Shown: piece after piece, positions 6,511 through 16,503 of the stretch
Layout: every line of letters begins with the position of its first letter
How positions within the stretch are numbered: position 1 is the stretch's first letter
Source: Minisyncoccota bacterium
GTDB taxonomy: Bacteria > Patescibacteriota > Minisyncoccia > Phycocordibacterales > Phycocordibacteraceae
Length of the DNA stretch: 16,503 nucleotides
Direction: 5' to 3'
Assembly (NCBI GenBank): GCA_022844065.1
Contig: JALHML010000001.1
Span: 1-16,503, forward strand
Notes under the pieces: generated by a model
Databases searched by the model: none
Seen by the model: the letters and a program-made list of their open reading frames with translations, nothing else
What the model was told of the DNA's origin: nothing
Translations under genes and position numbers: made by a program

Positions 6511-7509
6511 CTAGCTGGTGGCTGCCGCTACCTTTTCAAGGCGCGCCAGGAAGGCTTCGCGAGCCGCCGGCACATTCTCGTCTTCCCCTTTCCAAATCAT
6601 GAGTGCCTCTTCCTGAAGGGCGCGTGCATAGCTAAACGTAAGCGGCCATGGGGCATTACGTTCCCGAGCGAGCTTCGTTATGGCCGCTAGATTGGCAGTT
6701 GCTTGGTCTGGAGTCTGACCACCAGAAAGGAATACGATACCCGCCACTTCAGCAGGCACGGTCTCCATAAGTGCCCCCAGAGTATCCTCTGCAACCTCTT
6801 CAGGGGTGTCTTGTCTACCGCTCTTATTCCCTGAAACGGCCATTGAGGTCTTTATGATGATGCCCGAGAGGTCTGCGCACTGTTCGTTTAGGGTGTCGAA
6901 TAAGACACGCATCACGGACTCGATAACCGCACGCGCGCGCAACCTTCCATGTGCCCCATCAAGAAGTACTTCAGGCTCAAGGAGTGGCACCATACCTGCT
7001 TTTTGTACTTCGCAGGCATAGGTGGCAAGCCGCTTCGCATTCTCAACGAGTGCTCTGGCGGTTGGGAGACGATCTCCGTCAATGGTTATGGCCGCACGCC
7101 ACTTCGTAAAGCCAGTAGCGTAGTCGGTATGATACGCGGTGAGGCGCTCCGGCAAGCCCAGAAGTCCCTTCGTTATAGTTTCGCTCGGACTCTCAGCGAG
7201 CGGCTCAAGTCCCTGGTCAACCTTAATGCCGGGGGTTATCCCTTTTGCAGCAAGAAGTCGTGGAAACAACTCACCATCATTTCCCTTCTGCGAGAGGGTT
7301 TCTTCGTGGAGAATAACGCCGGTGAGATATTCCTCTATTCCTGGCGTTGCAAGAAGCATGTCACGAAACTTTCTGCGCATTTCGGGACCCGTTTTGATAC
7401 CGAACGCCGTAAGGCGCTTTTCGTCAGCACTTTTCTCGCTCTCGTCTGCGGCAAGTATCCCCTTGCCCGGCGCAACAAGTGCACGCGCAGTATCCGAAAG
7501 GTTCATCAT
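6511..7509 (-). CDS. Class I fructose-bisphosphate aldolase
   Basis: A 332-aa Schiff-base aldolase of the eukaryote-like glycolytic class I family. It splits or forms fructose 1,6-bisphosphate from DHAP and glyceraldehyde 3-phosphate, and may also handle sedoheptulose 1,7-bisphosphate. Visible signatures are 'KGILAADES' (16-24), 'FTKWRA' (134-139), 'LLEPE' (176-180), the Schiff-base lysine K220 in 'GIIIKTSM', 'FLSGGQ' (260-265) and 'SYARALQ' (293-299). An in-frame ATG at 7563 would overlap the start of the divergent pilin gene and add unrelated residues. The tandem ATGs at 7509/7506 are preferred; the first lies 6 nt after a TGC-TACACT extended -10. It is transcribed divergently from the pilin operon, with only 44 bp between the starts. 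Confidence 0.95.
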   Translation of the reverse strand: MMNLSDTARALVAPGKGILAADESEKSADEKRLTAFGIKTGPEMRRKFRDMLLATPGIEEYLTGVILHEETLSQKGNDGELFPRLLAAKGITPGIKVDQGLEPLAESPSETITKGLLGLPERLTAYHTDYATGFTKWRAAITIDGDRLPTARALVENAKRLATYACEVQKAGMVPLLEPEVLLDGAHGRLRARAVIESVMRVLFDTLNEQCADLSGIIIKTSMAVSGNKSGRQDTPEEVAEDTLGALMETVPAEVAGIVFLSGGQTPDQATANLAAITKLARERNAPWPLTFSYARALQEEALMIWKGEDENVPAAREAFLARLEKVAAATS

Positions 7510-7541: not shown

Positions 7542-7547
7542 TAGAAT
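7542..7547 (+). promoter_or_regulatory. -10 element of the plus-strand pilin operon
   Basis: TAGAAT ending 6 nt before the ATG at 7554. The ten bases TAGAATATAC are identical to those in front of the other pilin-pair operon (minus strand, 12579-12588), at the same distance from the start codon. Confidence 0.5.
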
Positions 7548-7553
7548 ATACAT

Positions 7554-7994
7554 ATGAATACACAGAAGGGATTTACCTTAATCGAGCTCTTGGTTGTGGT
7601 TGCAATTATCAGCTTATTAAGCTCTGTTGTCGTTGCGTCCCTTAATACCGCCCGTACTAAATCAAGAGACGCTGCGCGCGTTACCACCATAAAACAGGTG
7701 CAGAACGCGCTTGCCCTCTACTACGTTGACCGCAATGACTACCCACCCATCGCCCAAAACGAATGCGGCGGCACCGAAGGCTTCACAACAAGCAACAACG
7801 ACTTTATGGGTTCCTTGGTAAGCACGGGTTACTATCCTTCGTATCCCGTCGATCCAGGGAATCTCAACTGCGGTATGCAGTATGTTCGTGACAGTGCTAC
7901 GTCCTACCGCCTCTTCTATCGGCTTGAGGCGGGACCGGTGCCACCCGCTACCGGCTGCAACCAGCCACCAACGTGGTACTGTCTCCAGCCATAA
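7554..7994 (+). CDS. Type IV pilin-like protein, copy 1
   Basis: A 146-aa class III signal-peptide protein. The leader MNTQKG is followed by [13 protein letters not shown], with prepilin-peptidase cleavage expected after G6 and the conserved glutamate five residues into the mature protein (E11). A single N-terminal helix (about 7-55) carries the shared motif 'SLNTARTKSRDAAR' and precedes a small globular part ending in a cysteine loop, CNQPPTWYC. It would be extruded from the membrane into a pilus or competence pseudopilus. It is the first gene of a plus-strand operon, 3 nt before the small membrane protein gene. The start is fixed by the signal peptide. Whether it is a major or minor pilin cannot be told. 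Confidence 0.9.
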   Translation: MNTQKGFTLIELLVVVAIISLLSSVVVASLNTARTKSRDAARVTTIKQVQNALALYYVDRNDYPPIAQNECGGTEGFTTSNNDFMGSLVSTGYYPSYPVDPGNLNCGMQYVRDSATSYRLFYRLEAGPVPPATGCNQPPTWYCLQP

Positions 7995-7997
7995 TCT

Positions 7998-8249
7998 ATG
8001 AGCGTAACCTTTGACGAGGAGCAGCAGATAGCCAGGGTGCCGCAGACCGGCGTATCGGGCCTCTATGCGCTCGTTATTAGGTGGGGATTTGCAAAGGACG
8101 AGAAGCAGGCTGTCATTGTATTAGTAGCGATAGCAGTGGGATGCGTGCTACTCACAGGCATCGCTCTATTCAGCGGCAAGAGTACAACCACCATATCGCC
8201 CGCTGAGTACGCCGAGCGAGCACGATCGCAAGACACAGCACCCCGATAA
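7998..8249 (+). CDS. Small one-TM 'FDEE / WGFAKDEK' pilin-associated protein, copy A
   Basis: An 83-aa protein that I do not recognise as a named family. It has an N-terminal acidic motif TFDEE (4-8), a conserved LVIRWGFAKDEK (25-36), one membrane helix (about 38-59, AVIVLVAIAVGCVLLTGIALFS) and a short polar C-terminus. A paralogue lies at 12313-12576, and each copy directly precedes a pilin. The 12-residue core is identical in both copies although several codons differ, pointing to selection on the protein. It is joined on both sides by the stop-start junction TAATCTATGA and has no ribosome-binding site of its own, so it is probably translated by coupling. A role as assembly partner or membrane chaperone of the pilin is inference only. 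Confidence 0.75.
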   Translation: MSVTFDEEQQIARVPQTGVSGLYALVIRWGFAKDEKQAVIVLVAIAVGCVLLTGIALFSGKSTTTISPAEYAERARSQDTAPR

Positions 8250-8252
8250 TCT

Positions 8253-8714
8253 ATGAAGCGCGGATTCACCCTCATTGAACTCCTGGTTGTCATCGCCATC
8301 ATTGGCGTCCTCTCAAGTGTTGTCCTCGTGTCCCTTAATTCCGCTCGGGCGAAAGCAAACGATGCGAAGATACGTACTGACCTCCGACAGATATCAACGG
8401 CTCTGCAGTTCTATTTCGATAAGTACGGCACCTACCCAACAAATCCTCAGCCGTGCTGTGGGTCAACCTTTCCGAACGCCCTTACACCACTTGTAACCGA
8501 AGGGTTCATTGCCACACTACCAACGTCACCGAATCCGTCGCATCCGTATTACTACTACAACTATGGCGGTACGATCGGAGGCCTTGTGGTGAGCCAGTTT
8601 ATGGGCACCGCACCTTCAACTGGATACGCTGGCTCCTGTCGCCCGTGGGGACCCGGACAGAATTGGTGCGATACATCATCCAATACCTACTATTGTCTCT
8701 GTAACCCATACTAG
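8253..8714 (+). CDS. Type IV pilin-like protein, copy 2
   Basis: A 153-aa pilin with leader MKRG and mature start [16 protein letters not shown] (E8 is the conserved mature residue 5). The helix is followed by '[13 protein letters not shown]' and a globular domain rich in Tyr, Gly and Pro. Cysteines occur as CC (about 69-70) and in a C-terminal cluster ending CLC, which suggests a disulfide-closed end. It starts 3 nt after the small membrane protein through the TAATCTATGA junction. The closest match in the window is the pilin at 11823-12308, which follows the paralogous small membrane protein. Confidence 0.9.
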
Positions 8715-8723
8715 GCCTCGTGC

Positions 8724-8729
8724 TAGACT
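8724..8729 (+). promoter_or_regulatory. Extended -10 element of the PfkB-family kinase gene
   Basis: TGC-TAGACT, ending 7 nt before the ATG at 8737 and only 9 nt after the pilin stop. It would let the kinase be transcribed separately from the pilins as a leaderless mRNA. Confidence 0.5.
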
Positions 8730-8736
8730 CTTGTTC

Positions 8737-9732
8737 ATGAGCATAGACATCCTCGCCATTGGCGACATCGTTACCGAACCATTTATTCGCCTCACAGACG
8801 CTCATGTCGAAGACATGAAGGACTCCGACACAAAGCAGTTGTGTATGCGCTTTGGGGACAAGATTCCATACGAGTATGCTGTGCTTGCGGTTGCTGTAGG
8901 GAATGCCAGCAACGCTGCAGTAGCCGCTTCCCGCCTCGGACTTTCCGCCTCCCTCCGCTCTTATGTTGGCGACGATAGGTACGGTCCTGAATGTATTGCG
9001 AAACTTGTCGAAGAAGGCGTCGATACGTCTCTTATGGTGACAGAGGCTGGCAAGGCCACAAACTATCATTACGTTCTCTGGTACGGCAGCGAGCGCACGA
9101 TCCTCGTACGGCACGAGGAATTTGCGTACACGGTGCCGGAGCTCTCTGAGAGTCCGAAGTGGTTGTATCTCTCCTCACTTTCAGACAACTCACTTCCGTA
9201 CCACGAAGCAATCCTTGAGCTTCTCAAAAAGCATCCTGATACCAAGCTCGCCTTCCAGCCAGGAACCTTCCAGATAAAGCTCGGCAAGGATGCCTTGAAG
9301 GGTCTCTATGAGCGCAGCGAGCTCTTCTTCTGCAACAAGGAAGAGGCGCAGCGCATCTTGAGTCTTCCCGAAGAAAACAATATGGGTGTCCTCCTCGAAC
9401 GATTTGCTGCACTCGGTCCAACGATTGTTGTTATTACGGACGGACGTGAAGGCGCGTATGCATTCGACGGAAAGCGGAAGATGCACGTACCTATGTATCC
9501 GGATAGCCGTGCACCCTTTGAACGCACCGGTGCAGGCGACTCGTTCGCCGCAACCGTTACCGCCGCACTCTCGCTTGGTTTGCCCCTTGAAGAAGCGCTT
9601 TTGTGGGGACCAATCAATTCGATGGCCGTGGTGCAGGAAGTGGGTGCACAAAAAGGCCTTCTCACACGTGAGAAACTTGAAGAATATCTGCGCGTTGCTC
9701 CTCCCGAGTACAAAATCGCAGACCTCGTCTAA
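8737..9732 (+). CDS. PfkB-family carbohydrate kinase
   Basis: A 331-aa ribokinase-fold kinase. The N-terminal strand MSIDILAIGDIVTE and 'VGNASNAAVAASRLG' (54-68) correspond to the substrate-binding Gly-Asn region of PfkB proteins. 'VGDDRYG' lies near residue 77. The anion-hole/catalytic motif is 'RTGAGDSFAA' (263-272), with D268 as catalytic base; 'NKEEAQRIL' (200-208) fits the conserved NxxE region. It would phosphorylate a sugar or nucleoside with ATP; the substrate cannot be read from the sequence. An upstream in-frame TTG (8731) is possible, but the ATG at 8737 is better placed behind the -10. It follows the pilin operon and is closed by a bidirectional terminator. No PfkA is seen in the window, so a role in feeding sugar phosphates into the neighbouring pentose-phosphate enzymes is plausible. 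Confidence 0.88.
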   Translation: MSIDILAIGDIVTEPFIRLTDAHVEDMKDSDTKQLCMRFGDKIPYEYAVLAVAVGNASNAAVAASRLGLSASLRSYVGDDRYGPECIAKLVEEGVDTSLMVTEAGKATNYHYVLWYGSERTILVRHEEFAYTVPELSESPKWLYLSSLSDNSLPYHEAILELLKKHPDTKLAFQPGTFQIKLGKDALKGLYERSELFFCNKEEAQRILSLPEENNMGVLLERFAALGPTIVVITDGREGAYAFDGKRKMHVPMYPDSRAPFERTGAGDSFAATVTAALSLGLPLEEALLWGPINSMAVVQEVGAQKGLLTREKLEEYLRVAPPEYKIADLV

Positions 9733-9733
9733 C

Positions 9734-9764
9734 AACAAGCCCCGCTGTAAGCGGGGTTTTTGTT
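9734..9764. terminator. Bidirectional rho-independent terminator
   Basis: CCCCGC (9740-9745) pairs with GCGGGG (9751-9756), loop TGTAA, extended by A/T pairs, and is followed on the plus strand by TTTTTGTT. It lies between the convergent kinase gene and the small membrane protein gene (its stop is at 9763-9765) and can serve both. This is the only hairpin in the window with a classical U-run. Confidence 0.85.
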
Positions 9765-9957
9765 ATTCCACAGGACTTGGTGTGGGAACATTATATCCTT
9801 TCTCAAAGTCCGCATCAGCCGCGAACGGATTAAACGGCTCCTGTTCATACGCATCGTTGCTTAAGTTAGCAGCATCGATAATGAGAGCGATAGCACCAAG
9901 TGCGAGCACGACAATAAGGACTATGGCTGCGTAGGACGTGAGCTTCTTCCCCTTCAT
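9763..9957 (-). CDS. Hypothetical small one-TM protein
   Basis: A 64-aa protein without recognised family. It starts MKGKK, has one membrane helix at about 7-29 (TSYAAIVLIVVLALGAIALIIDA), and then an acidic, aromatic-containing tail (DAYEQEPFNPFAADADFEKGY) ending in TPSPVE. The positive N-terminus suggests the tail is outside the cytoplasm. It is preceded by a TATACT box 9 nt before the ATG, lies directly after the transketolase C-terminal subunit gene, and ends in a shared terminator. The well-formed promoter, terminator and TM segment support a real gene. Function unknown. Confidence 0.65.
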   Translation of the reverse strand: MKGKKLTSYAAIVLIVVLALGAIALIIDAANLSNDAYEQEPFNPFAADADFEKGYNVPTPSPVE

Positions 9958-9964
9958 ATAAATA

Positions 9965-10954
9965 TCAGTATATACCCAAGGACGTGCGTACCGCTGCCGC
10001 TATTCCTGAAGCCTGGAGGCCATAGTGTTTGAGTAACTCTTCCGGCTCTCCCGACTGCCCAAACACGTCCTTCATTCCAAGACGCGTTACGGGGACTGGA
10101 TACCGCTCGGAAAGAAATTCAGCAATCGCACTCCCAAATCCACCTGCTACCTGATGCTCTTCTATCGTTATGACGCGTCCAGCGCGCCGTGCCGCCTCTT
10201 CAACCTTTTCTTCGTCGAGCGGCTTAACCGAAGGCACATGGAGGACCGTTACTTCAATGTTGTCGGACGCTAGGGCGCGTGCGGCAAGCAACGCTTCGTA
10301 TGAAAGAGCCCCGGTACTCATGAGTGCAACCTTAGGCTTTGCACTCTCCCAAAGCACGAGAGCCTTCCCAATCTCAAAAGGGGTGTCAGTTGTTGTAAAT
10401 ACCGGCGTAGGTGCGCGCCCGAAGCGCAGATAGGTTGGTGTCTTTGATTCTGCAGCAGCCATAGTTGCCTTCCTTGCTTCCTCTGCGTCTCCCGGAACAA
10501 TTACGTTCATACCGGGCAGCATACGCATCATGCCAATGTCCTCGAGCATCTGATGGGTTGCACCGTCCGGACCCACCGACACCCCTGCATGCATACCGCA
10601 CACAACAACCGGCTGCTGATTAAGTGCAATGGTTGTGCGGATCTGTTCGTAGTTACGTCCCGGACTGAATGCGGCGTAGCTCGCAATGAACGGACGCTTT
10701 CCAACCGCTGCCATACCGGCCGCTACGGTTGCCATGTTTTGTTCTGCAACACCGACCTCAATGAAGCGGTCAGGGAATTCGTTCTCGAACCATTCAGCAC
10801 GAGTACTCTCTTTAAGATCCGCACAGAGCACCACAACGTTCGGGTCCTTCTTTCCCGCCTCAACAGCACCGAGACCAAAGCCGTCACGGGTCGCTTTCTT
10901 CTCGATATCCTTCGAGAAGACATTGGTATTGAGTTGTGCGTTTTTGTTAAGCAT
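9965..10954 (-). CDS. tktC: Transketolase, C-terminal subunit
   Basis: A 329-aa subunit holding the pyrimidine-binding and C-terminal transketolase domains. The catalytic glutamate that activates thiamine diphosphate is probably E71 in 'VGVAEQNMA'. 'VGPDGATHQMLED' (127-139) contains the conserved substrate-pocket histidine, and 'EEHQVAGGFGSAIAE' (265-279) marks the C-terminal domain. With the adjacent N-terminal subunit it would make an alpha2beta2 transketolase that moves two-carbon units between ketose and aldose phosphates. Split transketolases are usual in archaea and in many reduced bacteria. The ATG at 10954 overlaps the end of the N-terminal subunit gene by 8 nt, implying coupled, equimolar synthesis. 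The gene ends in TGA. Confidence 0.93.
   Translation of the reverse strand: MLNKNAQLNTNVFSKDIEKKATRDGFGLGAVEAGKKDPNVVVLCADLKESTRAEWFENEFPDRFIEVGVAEQNMATVAAGMAAVGKRPFIASYAAFSPGRNYEQIRTTIALNQQPVVVCGMHAGVSVGPDGATHQMLEDIGMMRMLPGMNVIVPGDAEEARKATMAAAESKTPTYLRFGRAPTPVFTTTDTPFEIGKALVLWESAKPKVALMSTGALSYEALLAARALASDNIEVTVLHVPSVKPLDEEKVEEAARRAGRVITIEEHQVAGGFGSAIAEFLSERYPVPVTRLGMKDVFGQSGEPEELLKHYGLQASGIAAAVRTSLGIY
9967..9972 (-). promoter_or_regulatory. -10 element of the small membrane protein gene at 9763-9957
   Basis: TATACT on the minus strand, ending 9 nt before the ATG at 9957 and lying at the 3' end of tktC. No clear -35. Confidence 0.5.
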
Positions 10955-11804
10955 ATTCGTTCGGTACCCTTCCAGCTCCGTTGCGGAGCTCTTTCATGAA
11001 TCGGGCCCCCTCTTCTTTGGTGGGCCACTTCCCGTGCCATTTGTAATCGTATTCAATCTCAGGAACGCCCTTGCCTGGAATCGTGTGGGCGATGATGAGG
11101 GTTGGCTTCTCTGGAATCGCGCGTGCATGGTCACACGCATCAACGAATGCTTCTATGTTATGCCCGTCTATTTCCATCACGTGCCATCCGAACGCTTCGT
11201 ACTTTTCCTTGAGGGAATTAAGCGGCATTACGTCCTCGGTCATACCATCTATCTGGATGTTGTTGCGGTCCATAACGGCCGTTAGGTTGCCGAGCTCATA
11301 TTTGGACGCAAACATAACCGCTTCCCAGGTGTTGCCCTCCTGCTGTTCCCCGTCCGACATCATGACAAAGGTACGGTTCTTCTTCCCGTCCATCTTAAGT
11401 GCAAGCGCAATACCTGCCGCTTGTGAGAGTCCGCTTCCAAGAGGCCCTGAGGTTGTCTCAAGTCCTGGAAGACGATCTCGTTCGGGGTGTCCCTGAAGCC
11501 TTGAACCAAATTTGCGAAGCGTAAGGCATTCTTCAACCGGGAAATACCCTGCATGTGCCATGGCGGAGTAGCGGACCGGCACCGTGTGTCCGTTCGAGAG
11601 AATCAATCGATCACGCTCTTCCCAATCAGGATTCTTTGGATCGTGTTTGAGTATATGGAAATAGAATGCCGCGAAGAGATCACTCATGCCTAGTGGACCC
11701 GCCGTGTGTCCGCTTCCGGCTTGTACAAGCATGTCGAGAATAGTCTCGCGGATTGCTTCCGCATGAGTCTCAATATTTTTAATCTCAATGTCAGTGAGCG
11801 CCAT
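10947..11804 (-). CDS. tktN: Transketolase, N-terminal (thiamine diphosphate-binding) subunit
   Basis: A 285-aa subunit with the thiamine diphosphate-binding half of transketolase. 'GSGHTAGPLGMSDL' (30-43) and 'NGHTVPVRYS' (71-80) provide the substrate and cofactor histidines; 'QGHPER' (104-109) is conserved. The ThDP-Mg motif begins 'SDGEQQEGNTWEA' (150-162) and ends at N181-N182 about 30 residues later, the usual spacing; the first Gly of the GDG signature is Ser here. It acts in the non-oxidative pentose phosphate pathway together with RpiB and Rpe-like protein encoded about 2 kb upstream. The ATG at 11804 lies 18 nt after the pilin stop and 7 nt after a TATCGT box; AAGGGG in this gap could instead serve as a weak Shine-Dalgarno. 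Confidence 0.93.
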   Translation of the reverse strand: MALTDIEIKNIETHAEAIRETILDMLVQAGSGHTAGPLGMSDLFAAFYFHILKHDPKNPDWEERDRLILSNGHTVPVRYSAMAHAGYFPVEECLTLRKFGSRLQGHPERDRLPGLETTSGPLGSGLSQAAGIALALKMDGKKNRTFVMMSDGEQQEGNTWEAVMFASKYELGNLTAVMDRNNIQIDGMTEDVMPLNSLKEKYEAFGWHVMEIDGHNIEAFVDACDHARAIPEKPTLIIAHTIPGKGVPEIEYDYKWHGKWPTKEEGARFMKELRNGAGRVPNEYA

Positions 11805-11811
11805 GCCCCTT

Positions 11812-11817
11812 ACGATA
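11812..11817 (-). promoter_or_regulatory. -10 element of the transketolase operon
   Basis: TATCGT on the minus strand with TGA before it, ending 7 nt before the ATG at 11804. The purine run AAGGGG between the two makes a Shine-Dalgarno reading possible as well. Confidence 0.35.
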
Positions 11818-11822
11818 TCATG

Positions 11823-12308
11823 CTAGTTGGCCGAAGACTTTGAGTATAGGTTTCCTCCCCACCACGGACAGGTGTTCGTGGTGCCATCAAGCCACACGGC
11901 AGGAACACCTGAGCCGCACGTACCCTGCGGATTCTCCATAGAGGTCCCGAGAAAATATGCTGATCCGGTTGAGTAGTAATGAAATGGAACGAGACCGCTT
12001 GAGGCGTACGGAGTGAGATCATGTGGCTGTGGATTGAGGTAGGTCTGTAGCCCTGGTATCCAGTTCGCCTGCTGCGTATCCACACACCACCCATCCGATC
12101 GACAGCCTGCGCTTGGTGGATAGGAACCGTTGGCGTCGTAATAGAATGCGAGCGCAAGAACTATTTGATTCATCGCTGCCTTTCGGCTCGCGTCCCTCGC
12201 CCGGCTACGTGCGGTATTCAAGGACGCGAGCACTACCGACGAGAGCATACCGATGATGGCAATCACCACGAGGAGCTCTATGAGGGTAAATCCGCGCTTG
12301 TTCTTCAT
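11823..12308 (-). CDS. Type IV pilin-like protein, copy 3
   Basis: A 161-aa pilin with leader MKNKRG and mature [21 protein letters not shown] (E11 is the conserved mature residue 5), then 'SLNTARSRARDASRK', a helix into 'ALAFYYDANGSYPPSAGC', and a globular domain with cysteine pairs near residues 75/81 and 139/152. The reading frame is open much further upstream (to 12482), but that part overlaps the small membrane protein gene in another frame; the class III signal peptide fixes the start at 12308. It lies 4 nt after the stop of small membrane protein copy B, mirroring the plus-strand pair. The divergent C-terminal domain suggests a different pilin subunit or altered surface properties. Confidence 0.9.
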   Translation of the reverse strand: MKNKRGFTLIELLVVIAIIGMLSSVVLASLNTARSRARDASRKAAMNQIVLALAFYYDANGSYPPSAGCRSDGWCVDTQQANWIPGLQTYLNPQPHDLTPYASSGLVPFHYYSTGSAYFLGTSMENPQGTCGSGVPAVWLDGTTNTCPWWGGNLYSKSSAN

Positions 12309-12312
12309 AGGT

Positions 12313-12576
12313 CTATCGTGGAAGCGGTTCAACGAATCCGTTCTTCGCCCGTAGCTCGTCGGGTGTGTACTGCTTATTCTTGCTGCCCCCAAAAAGTGAG
12401 GCAAGTGCGAAAACCATAATAAGGAACGCAATCCCCGCAACCGCAAGGAGCACATATTCCGCATTCTTCTCGTCTTTCGCAAACCCCCACCGTATAACGA
12501 GTCGTACGAGCGCGGGCGACTGCGTAAGAGACGGCGCAGAAGCTATTGGCTCTTCGTCAAAGGATACATCTGCCAT
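12313..12576 (-). CDS. Small one-TM 'FDEE / WGFAKDEK' pilin-associated protein, copy B
   Basis: An 87-aa paralogue of the protein at 7998-8249. It shares SFDEE (5-9) and LVIRWGFAKDEK (26-37), followed by a membrane helix (about 41-62, VLLAVAGIAFLIMVFALASLF) and a polar tail with 'YTPDELRAKNGF'; copy A has 'ISPAEYAERA' at the same place. The region between the FDEE and WGFAKDEK motifs and the C-terminus have diverged. The ATG at 12576 lies 6 nt after TAGAAT. It is followed after 4 nt by a pilin gene, the same order as copy A. No known domain is recognised; a role in pilin insertion or assembly is only an inference from context. Confidence 0.78.
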   Translation of the reverse strand: MADVSFDEEPIASAPSLTQSPALVRLVIRWGFAKDEKNAEYVLLAVAGIAFLIMVFALASLFGGSKNKQYTPDELRAKNGFVEPLPR

Positions 12577-12582
12577 GGGTAT

Positions 12583-12588
12583 ATTCTA
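12583..12588 (-). promoter_or_regulatory. -10 element of the minus-strand pilin-pair operon
   Basis: TAGAAT on the minus strand, ending 6 nt before the ATG at 12576, in the 21-nt gap after the Rpe-like gene. It shares TAGAATATAC with the promoter at 7542. Confidence 0.5.
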
Positions 12589-14953: not shown

Positions 14954-16503
14954 TTATGCTGCGGGTGCTGGAGTTGGTTCGGGGGCTGGCGCTGGCGCTG
15001 GCACTGGTGTCGGTTCCGGCGCCGGAGTAGGTTCAGGCTCTGGTGCTGGAATCGGCTCTGAAGTTGGCTCAGACACAGGTTCAGGCGGTGGTGTAGGTTC
15101 AACAACAGTCTCGCTCGGTACTGATTCTTCCTCGGTAGGTGTTGGCTCGGGCGTAGGAGTTGGTGTAGGTTCAGGAACTACTACAGGATCAGGCTGCGTA
15201 CGGTCTATAACCTGGCACTCCCCTTCGCGAATTATCTGTGCACCGTTGCGGATAGCGAGACAGTACGGCTCTCCCGTTACTTCGTCATAGAACGTAATAC
15301 CGGTTGGCTTTTCCGGGCTTCCAACCGTTAGGCGCTCAACAACGAGCTCAACCGCTGCGAGCATACCATTTCGGATACTAAACTTTTCAAGTATTTCGGT
15401 AAGAGTTGCAAGCTCTGGGAACGAGGTAGACACAGGACGTGCGGCAAGCTCGGCGAGCTGCTCTTCGATGGAGGAGAGGCGGTCCATGATGAGGTCCGTG
15501 CGGCGAAGCGATTCCTCTCCTGCGCTAATGGCGAAGCTCGCCATCTTGTAGAGATCAGCCTTGCCACCTGTGTAGACTTCTTCTGGTAGAGTTTCGGATG
15601 TCTGTGTAAGGAATGCAGTTGCGCTCACGGAGCCTGTTGCAAGAACACTTGTCGCCGTAAGAGCATCATTGATTGTAGCGGTGCCCGAAACGGTGAGTTT
15701 GCCCGCTATGGACGCGTCAGTCGATACCAGGAGGGAGTACGCTACTGTATTCTCCGCAGCAGGTGCGAGTGCAAGTGTGCGTACGTTGAGCTCGTTTACA
15801 CCTTCAACGAGATACGGAATGAAATCGAGATATGAGACGCCGAGGTATCCGTTCACCGGATCCACAATCTTTGCTGAGTTTGGCATTACAGCCTGCACGT
15901 CTTGTGCGATGAATCCGATTTCAGGACGATCGCTGCCTATCATGTTGTAGGTCTTGGCATTGATTGCAGACAGGACCGAGAATGGGTTCTCGACGTCCTG
16001 AATATTCTCCTTGAGTCTCTGGTCCGAGACGTCGGTGATGGTGCCGGTGTATTCGATGTCTCCGGTGACGTCGAGTGCTACAGATGGTCCGATCATACCA
16101 ATACCCACATAGCCCGTACGGTCCAACATAAGAACAGGAGTTGAAACCCAGCCAGCGTATTCCCTAGTGAAATACAAATTTCCCACCGTACCATCGTCTG
16201 GTATGCGCATTGCCCATCCTGAAGCTGGGTACGCTGCACCAGCTAACCTAATACTACCGCTACCCAACGCCTGGGTTGCGGTATTATTTACAATATGGAG
16301 CTTTCCCTCAGGTGCTATGGAGCCAATACCGACATAGCCTGCAGATGAGATACGCATCGCCTCACTACCACCATTAGAGACAGTGATCGGACCGTATCCA
16401 CCCGAGACAAAACTATTCGTAATAGCGGTTCCACCGGCGTCAGAATTACTTGGAACGATACTGAAGCTCGTTTTGGTAGTTAGGAGCTGGATACCTGCAC
16501 TTG
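14954..16503 (-). CDS. Surface/tail-fibre-like protein with S74 intramolecular chaperone domain (5' end outside window)
   Basis: The frame is open to the right edge with no stop, so at least 515 residues are visible and the N-terminus is missing; the ATG at 16357 is internal. The N-terminal visible part has tail-fibre-like repeats ('MRISSAGYVGIGSIAPEGKLHI', 'GYVGIGMIGPSVALDVTG'). Then comes a Peptidase_S74/endosialidase intramolecular chaperone domain starting 'SDQRLKENI', with the Ser and Lys five residues apart that form the self-cleavage dyad in phage endosialidases. 'IGFIAQDVQAVMP' and 'YLDFIPYLVEGVNELN' complete it. A further 270 or so residues follow: a beta-rich segment, a helical region, a Cys pair (YCL..., ECQ) and a Pro/Thr/Glu/Ala tail. 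It is probably a trimeric exported surface fibre, and not a phage gene, as no other phage genes are visible. Confidence 0.8.
   Translation of the reverse strand, partial: SAGIQLLTTKTSFSIVPSNSDAGGTAITNSFVSGGYGPITVSNGGSEAMRISSAGYVGIGSIAPEGKLHIVNNTATQALGSGSIRLAGAAYPASGWAMRIPDDGTVGNLYFTREYAGWVSTPVLMLDRTGYVGIGMIGPSVALDVTGDIEYTGTITDVSDQRLKENIQDVENPFSVLSAINAKTYNMIGSDRPEIGFIAQDVQAVMPNSAKIVDPVNGYLGVSYLDFIPYLVEGVNELNVRTLALAPAAENTVAYSLLVSTDASIAGKLTVSGTATINDALTATSVLATGSVSATAFLTQTSETLPEEVYTGGKADLYKMASFAISAGEESLRRTDLIMDRLSSIEEQLAELAARPVSTSFPELATLTEILEKFSIRNGMLAAVELVVERLTVGSPEKPTGITFYDEVTGEPYCLAIRNGAQIIREGECQVIDRTQPDPVVVPEPTPTPTPEPTPTEEESVPSETVVEPTPPPEPVSEPTSEPIPAPEPEPTPAPEPTPVPAPAPAPEPTPAPAA
14957..15202 (-). 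repeat. Low-complexity Pro/Glu/Thr/Ala-coding repeat at the S74 protein C-terminus
   Basis: About 82 codons dominated by PEPTP, PAPEP and PAPAP units encode an extended, probably wall-spanning or envelope-proximal tail. The complementary strand reads as Gly/Ser/Val repeats, which creates an artefactual plus-strand reading frame. Confidence 0.8.

Follow-up and report, generated by a model that had tools for sequence, protein, structure and literature searches.

Evidence for an unnamed family of small membrane proteins preferentially linked to satellite type IV pilins in one order of Patescibacteria

The window analyzed here, a stretch of DNA of 16,503 nt, carries two short genes that each lie directly before a type IV pilin gene, on opposite strands (Table 1). 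Both ORFs are present as given in the preliminary description, and their products, which we call partner proteins, have the features claimed there: an FDEE N-terminus, the block LVIRWGFAKDEK and one transmembrane (TM) helix. Overall, the two copies are 41% identical, and in both the common FDEE and LVIRWGFAKDEK elements are followed by the hydrophobic helix. The ORF coordinates and the scores for the class III signal model PF07963 bear out that a pilin gene starts 3-4 nt behind each copy, and the PF07963 cut-off is exceeded by all three of the window pilins. An additional pilin, absent from the preliminary description, ends 3 nt before partner 1, so the forward-strand locus is a pilin-partner-pilin run, with an identical TAA TCT ATG junction on both sides of the partner. 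The core had also been described as identical in protein with differing codons, and in the 36 nt encoding it we count five synonymous and no nonsynonymous differences between copies 1 and 2. A -10-like box precedes 4 of the 10 window genes tested. From reading the translations, we take the neighboring genes to encode an aldolase, a PfkB-type kinase, two transketolase halves, ribulose-phosphate epimerase, RpiB and GAPDH.

Table 1 Features of the two partner-pilin loci in the window
Feature	Position	Strand	Description
Box, TAGAAT	7542..7547	+	-10-like; 6 nt before the start of pilin 1, the first gene of the pilin-partner-pilin run
Pilin 1	7554..7994	+	Directly 5' of partner 1, 3-nt gap; PF07963 1.7e-9
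Partner copy 1	7998..8249	+	83 aa; FDEE N-terminus, LVIRWGFAKDEK, one TM helix, short C-tail
Pilin 2	8253..8714	+	Directly 3' of partner 1, 3-nt gap from stop to start (8253); major-pilin-type N-terminus; PF07963 2.6e-8
Pilin 3	11823..12308	-	161 aa from the ATG at 12308; 4 nt after partner 2; PF07963 3.4e-10
Partner copy 2	12313..12576	-	87 aa
Box, TAGAAT	12583..12588	-	-10-like; 6 nt before the start of partner 2; no Shine-Dalgarno-like site

Two other genes of the window were noted in passing. A 64-aa protein with one TM segment is encoded at 9763-9957 (reverse strand), flanked by the genes for the transketolase C half and the PfkB-type kinase; it has a weak SecE match below the cut-off and is conserved at that place in the loci L003 (72%) and L127 (39%). 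The reverse-strand ORF at 14954-16501 combines an S74 chaperone-of-endosialidase domain with a Pro-rich tail and has same-place relatives in L003 (40%) and L127 (43%).

The genome of the window contains two further family copies (contigs C42 and C11), each with a pilin next downstream, and all four copies are of the partner-then-pilin type. Both window copies belong to one 12-row branch of the family tree in which every member is pilin-linked. We rejected a recent inverted duplication as the origin of the window pair: each copy has its own nearest relative in another genome, and on the tree the two are diverged paralogs. In the syntenic relative L127, the orthologs of partner 1 (66% identity) and pilin 2 (87%) are adjacent, and the same holds in L003 for the orthologs of partner 2 (58%) and pilin 3 (82%). 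Since partner identities lie below pilin identities in both relatives, the partner changes faster than its pilin there. The part of L003 that separates the transketolase halves (8923-9566) contains pilin-like sequence overlapping 28 residues that match the C half, which would fit the insertion of a pilin island.

With copy 2 as the sole query, a search returned 10 proteins, copy 2 included, and a profile built from 11 sequences returned 101 at E up to 0.1. The matched proteins are mostly nameless and otherwise annotated as hypothetical, from organisms such as Kaiserbacteria, Taylorbacteria, Paceibacterota and Parcubacteria. At E up to 1e-5, the profile matched 10 genomes in a sample of 379 from across the phylum; every one of the 10 belongs to the order of the window, and the family was not detected outside that order in this search. 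Within the order, 131 of 297 genomes carry it, with up to seven copies per genome. The proposal that the motif belongs to no named family agrees with our database comparisons. No family in Pfam or NCBIfam was common to the 47 members scanned, either at the curated cut-offs or at E 0.1; at the latter threshold, the most widely matched family reached at most two members in Pfam and at most three in NCBIfam, among the best 25 of 36 Pfam and 25 of 28 NCBIfam families by member number. Comparison with PDB sequences yielded no shared match and eight weak ones (best E 0.07), mostly to a SecY segment, and we found no description of the family in the open-license literature as searched by title or abstract start.

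An alignment of 157 copies shows a phenylalanine in 92% of them, followed by acidic residues, and then, before or at the start of the TM segment, a glycine (81%), a lysine (71%), a D/N/T/S position, an alanine (94%) and a leucine (81%). The consensus reads [VI]xF(x)[DE][DE]E at the N-terminus, with a G-x-x-K-[DNT]-E-x-x-A turn into the TM helix. Because conservation across the 157 copies is only this loose, the identical block in the window represents one clade's version of a broader motif. Most members have 60-110 aa, usually with an outer tail that contains prolines. Among the 14 close pairs for which dS could be measured (several near saturation, with dS over 1), 11 have dN/dS values of 0.03-0.26, and three paralog pairs from one genome have values of 0.29-0.53; dS is saturated in four further pairs. 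These ratios indicate that the family is under purifying selection, in keeping with the suggestion that the motif is selected.

Lysine and arginine are more common before than after the TM segment in 121 of 156 copies, with the reverse in 15, and this excess fits a cytoplasmic N-terminus. The low-confidence AlphaFold2 model (mean pLDDT 68.5) consists of three helices, one of them the TM helix, and no strands: a helix at residues 22-29, a turn, a helix at 36-63 that contains the TM segment, and a short tail helix at 72-78. A strong amphipathic helix before the TM segment was rejected, as the hydrophobic moment there (0.36) is barely above that of shuffled sequences (0.31). In raw counts that ignore kinship, an outer tail of eight residues or fewer is found in 8 of 115 pilin-linked versus 16 of 41 unlinked copies; tail length overall differs slightly between the two groups (p 0.04, kinship likewise ignored).

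To describe the linkage to pilins across the order, we read 123 loci that hold the 157 copies recognized by the family model. The loci comprise the regions of 50 matches, 80 further regions and two of the three loci returned by a peptide-pattern scan of genome contigs (one pattern); the 80 regions were taken mostly from the top of the order-wide matches, and weak copies are under-sampled. A same-strand pilin lies downstream within 30 nt in 101 of the 157 copies, at 31-200 nt in 8 and at 201-1000 nt in 4, where start codons were set by a simple rule and distances may be off (10 of 30 listed distances are zero or negative). Of the remaining copies, 6 have a pilin only just upstream, 37 have none and 1 meets a contig end. 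Gene order is thus nearly always partner then pilin, with 109 copies having the pilin within 200 nt after them versus 6 only before. Homologs are not found mostly away from pilins; 115 of 157 have one within 200 nt (the 101 close downstream and 14 others). Several of the copies without a pilin are cut by contig ends, such as L042 and L069, and the L042 ortholog in L039 has a pilin 11 nt upstream. No same-frame fusion of partner and pilin occurs among the 157 copies. These linkage counts, like the lysine and arginine counts above and the copy-number, array and box counts below, are raw and ignore kinship. Some solo copies occupy sites that we take, from their translations, to be DnaE/RNase HII, FBA/L25 and rplB/rpsS; at the last, the copy at L139:3287-3529 (reverse strand) apparently sits between rplB and rpsS, as named from the translations, in a ribosomal protein operon.

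Which pilins have a partner was examined in 12 hand-picked genomes, 9 with the family and 3 without, which contain 126 PF07963 matches over the cut-off (7 of 133, below it, were left out). Pilins were called clustered where at least four PF07963 matches fall within 6 kb. A partner stands directly upstream of 0 of 51 clustered pilins versus 30 of 75 others, and the other 45 of these 75 non-array pilins lack one. In turn, 30 of the 36 partner copies have a pilin directly downstream, a frequency far beyond chance given that each genome contains only 4-20 pilins. Five of the arrays appear, from reading, to include the core operon pilB-pilT-pilC-pilA-pilD-minor pilins; no partner was present in these five, and the core PilA has none. 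The linked pilins mostly have a major-pilin N-terminus or close variants of it, with a median length of 171 aa. The family is therefore not a general partner of pilins, being absent from clustered core-type arrays and placed before only part of the other pilins. Of the dedicated pilin partner envisaged in the preliminary description, the usual position directly before a pilin stands; generality does not, given the arrays, the partner-less dispersed pilins and the 37 copies with no neighboring pilin. We are highly confident that this is a real, unnamed protein family, tied preferentially to satellite (that is, dispersed) pilins.

Partner copy number and pilin number are correlated across 58 genomes (Spearman 0.65), and mean PF07963 matches are 9.6 with the partner versus 5.3 without. 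If one pilin is subtracted for each of the 67 partner copies in 32 genomes, ≈7.5 remain, so the excess does not consist only of paired pilins. Presence of pilins does not discriminate at the level of the order, because 293 of 297 genomes have them; the 4 without include none of the 131 partner-positive genomes, too few to count. Among 27 partner-less pilins inspected, 22 have a same-strand ORF of at least 130 aa that ends within about 150 nt before them. At L243 (G035:C1), the satellite pilin at 266673 has its start overlapped by an ORF of another kind, 68 aa long and with one hydrophobic segment, and other unrelated small partners of this kind may exist. Some pilins were seen to have long, odd leaders with a repeated GFT-type start (RGFTPLE... 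or similar), as if the pilin start carried an insertion; they occur at L044 (forward strand, after partner copies ending at 6657 and 7506) and at L070 and L189 (reverse strand, each after a partner copy).

The layout of the start regions was compared using a box defined as TANNNT ending 4-10 nt before the start codon, which 27% of shuffled sequences contain. The box precedes 73 of 101 linked partner starts versus 19 of the 101 pilin starts behind them. It also stands before 20 of 37 solo copies and, among dispersed pilins without a partner, before 15 of the 24 compared (24 of the 27 inspected pilins, three left out). Shine-Dalgarno-like strings show no excess (5, 3 and 0 versus 6.7% in shuffled sequences, and so below the shuffled level). 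In the window's genome, boxes that abut some starts without Shine-Dalgarno sites suggest leaderless transcripts. The simplest reading of the sequences would be a leaderless transcript of both genes that starts at the partner and from which the pilin is translated as well.

In the family tree (155 rows, poorly resolved), the label linked or unlinked changes at least 29 times; shuffled labels average 36.3 changes, and 0-2 of 500 shuffles were as low. The starred branches force at least eight such changes. Linkage has thus arisen or broken up repeatedly, a history that speaks for a recurring advantage as well as against an obligate tie. Strict pair-specific co-evolution was rejected, as neither test of it was significant: 85 of 1000 random re-pairings within genomes gave a correlation at least as high as that observed, and the best-matching partner coincided with the best-matching pilin in 336 of 770 tests versus 296 expected. 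The 'subunit-specific' docking factor offered in the preliminary description is accordingly not demonstrated.

The lability of linkage and the weakness of co-evolution would also be expected if this small membrane protein served a general function unrelated to pili and lay beside satellite pilins because both occupy the same genomic niches or travel in one mobile cassette. The solo copies, some of them at unrelated housekeeping spots, and the variation of pilin islands between syntenic genomes point the same way. Against this explanation stand the strong bias in gene order, with gaps of mostly a few nucleotides, the promoter-like box that is found on the partner and missing on the pilin, and the complete absence of the family from clustered pilin arrays. 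We regard it as unlikely, though it is the most serious of the alternatives. The same junctions could instead mark a leader ORF that controls the pilin through translational coupling and whose protein product matters little: the pilin starts -4 to +20 nt from the partner stop in 86 of the 101 close pairs, and its start has neither a promoter-like box nor a Shine-Dalgarno excess. Protein motifs are, however, kept over very divergent copies at low dN/dS, and unlinked copies retain them too, and we consider a leader ORF improbable. Least probable, and quite doubtful, is a degenerate pilin that carries perhaps a modified class III signal (G-F-x-x-x-E, as in WGFAKDE) and itself enters the filament or its base, since the G at -1 and E at +5 in 72 of 157 copies and the weak archaeal-pilin (4e-4) or class III (1.4e-3) matches of single members are set against a TM segment that begins about 10 residues after the G, unlike in pilins, the lack of any match of either window copy at E up to 1 to PF07963 (a prepilin motif with the hydrophobic helix at once behind it), and a profile-profile comparison that aligns the TM segment only, at 14.7% probability, on which we rejected homology to pilins.

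Our preferred reading builds on what the computations showed, namely the family, its topology bias, selection, linkage, operon-like layout and restriction to pilins outside clustered arrays. In it, the partner would be a single-pass inner-membrane protein with a cytoplasmic N-terminus, a short juxtamembrane helix, the TM segment and an outer tail, usually encoded at the head of a probably leaderless operon of two genes. Behind it would follow the gene for a satellite paralog of the major type IV pilin, and the partner would be made just ahead of its pilin from what is probably the same message. The partner may then bind the TM segment of the pilin within the membrane and either stabilize it or pass it on to the common, core-operon-encoded PilB/PilC assembly engine, which the conserved cytoplasmic end of the partner would face. 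We hold this role, an N-in single-TM accessory factor for the stabilization or docking of dispersed major-type pilins, with middling confidence, and the biochemical step is an inference. A more far-reaching version of the accessory reading is speculative and in our view rather unlikely: in these ultrasmall bacteria, one shared type IV pilus engine would build alternative filaments from satellite major pilins, each admitted by its own co-expressed single-TM adaptor, with the cytoplasmic [VI]xFxEE end docking on a common part of the engine, the core PilA doing without an adaptor, and tail-less solo copies acting as free docking regulators.

Known pilin-associated proteins offer three points of comparison. 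The short pilin chaperone Spc of Geobacter is likewise small, is encoded together with a pilin and has been proposed to stabilize it; it corresponds to the C-terminal half of the pilin and is encoded after pilA-N. Unlike Spc, the partner is a TM protein in its own right, and its gene precedes that of a full-length pilin. The TfpX, TfpY and TfpZ proteins (FimB-like) of Pseudomonadota are described, in the portion of the source available to us, as inner-membrane pilin accessory proteins encoded next to the pilin gene, downstream of it in a pilin-accessory cassette, with about 235-245 aa (one variant has 170 aa) and, in most, three N-terminal helices and C-terminal beta domains (PMC11841053). The same portion describes TfpY as needed for optimal assembly and likely to contact pilins, and as not detected in the pilus (PMC11841053). 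Like these proteins, the partner is an inner-membrane protein encoded beside a pilin gene. Unlike them, it has about 87 aa (83 and 87 in the window), one TM helix and no strands in the low-confidence model, its gene usually lies upstream of the pilin, and it belongs to another phylum. Because the defining features fail, we do not file the family with TfpY-type proteins and set it apart from TfpY by description; by analogy, it may resemble them in its possible role.

Among Patescibacteria, the part of a study of Saccharibacteria TM7x available to us places pilins both in type IV pilus machinery loci and as an orphan, and ascribes help in host binding to a thin pilus; the phrase 'membrane protein' is absent from this part of the text (PMC12206443). 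TM7x thus resembles the window's order in having pilins both in machinery loci and outside them. Pilin gene clusters are also discussed, in the accessible part of the source, for Paceibacteria attached to Methanospirillum (PMC9763046). In Patescibacteria, type IV pili are candidate structures for attachment to the host, and genomes of the window's order hold many pilins of no assigned use. By marking pilins outside the core operon, the family offers a handle on the pilins of alternative filaments and on how a small cell controls the choice among them. If the accessory role holds, the partner would represent a pilin accessory protein with a single helix, far below the TfpY type in size.
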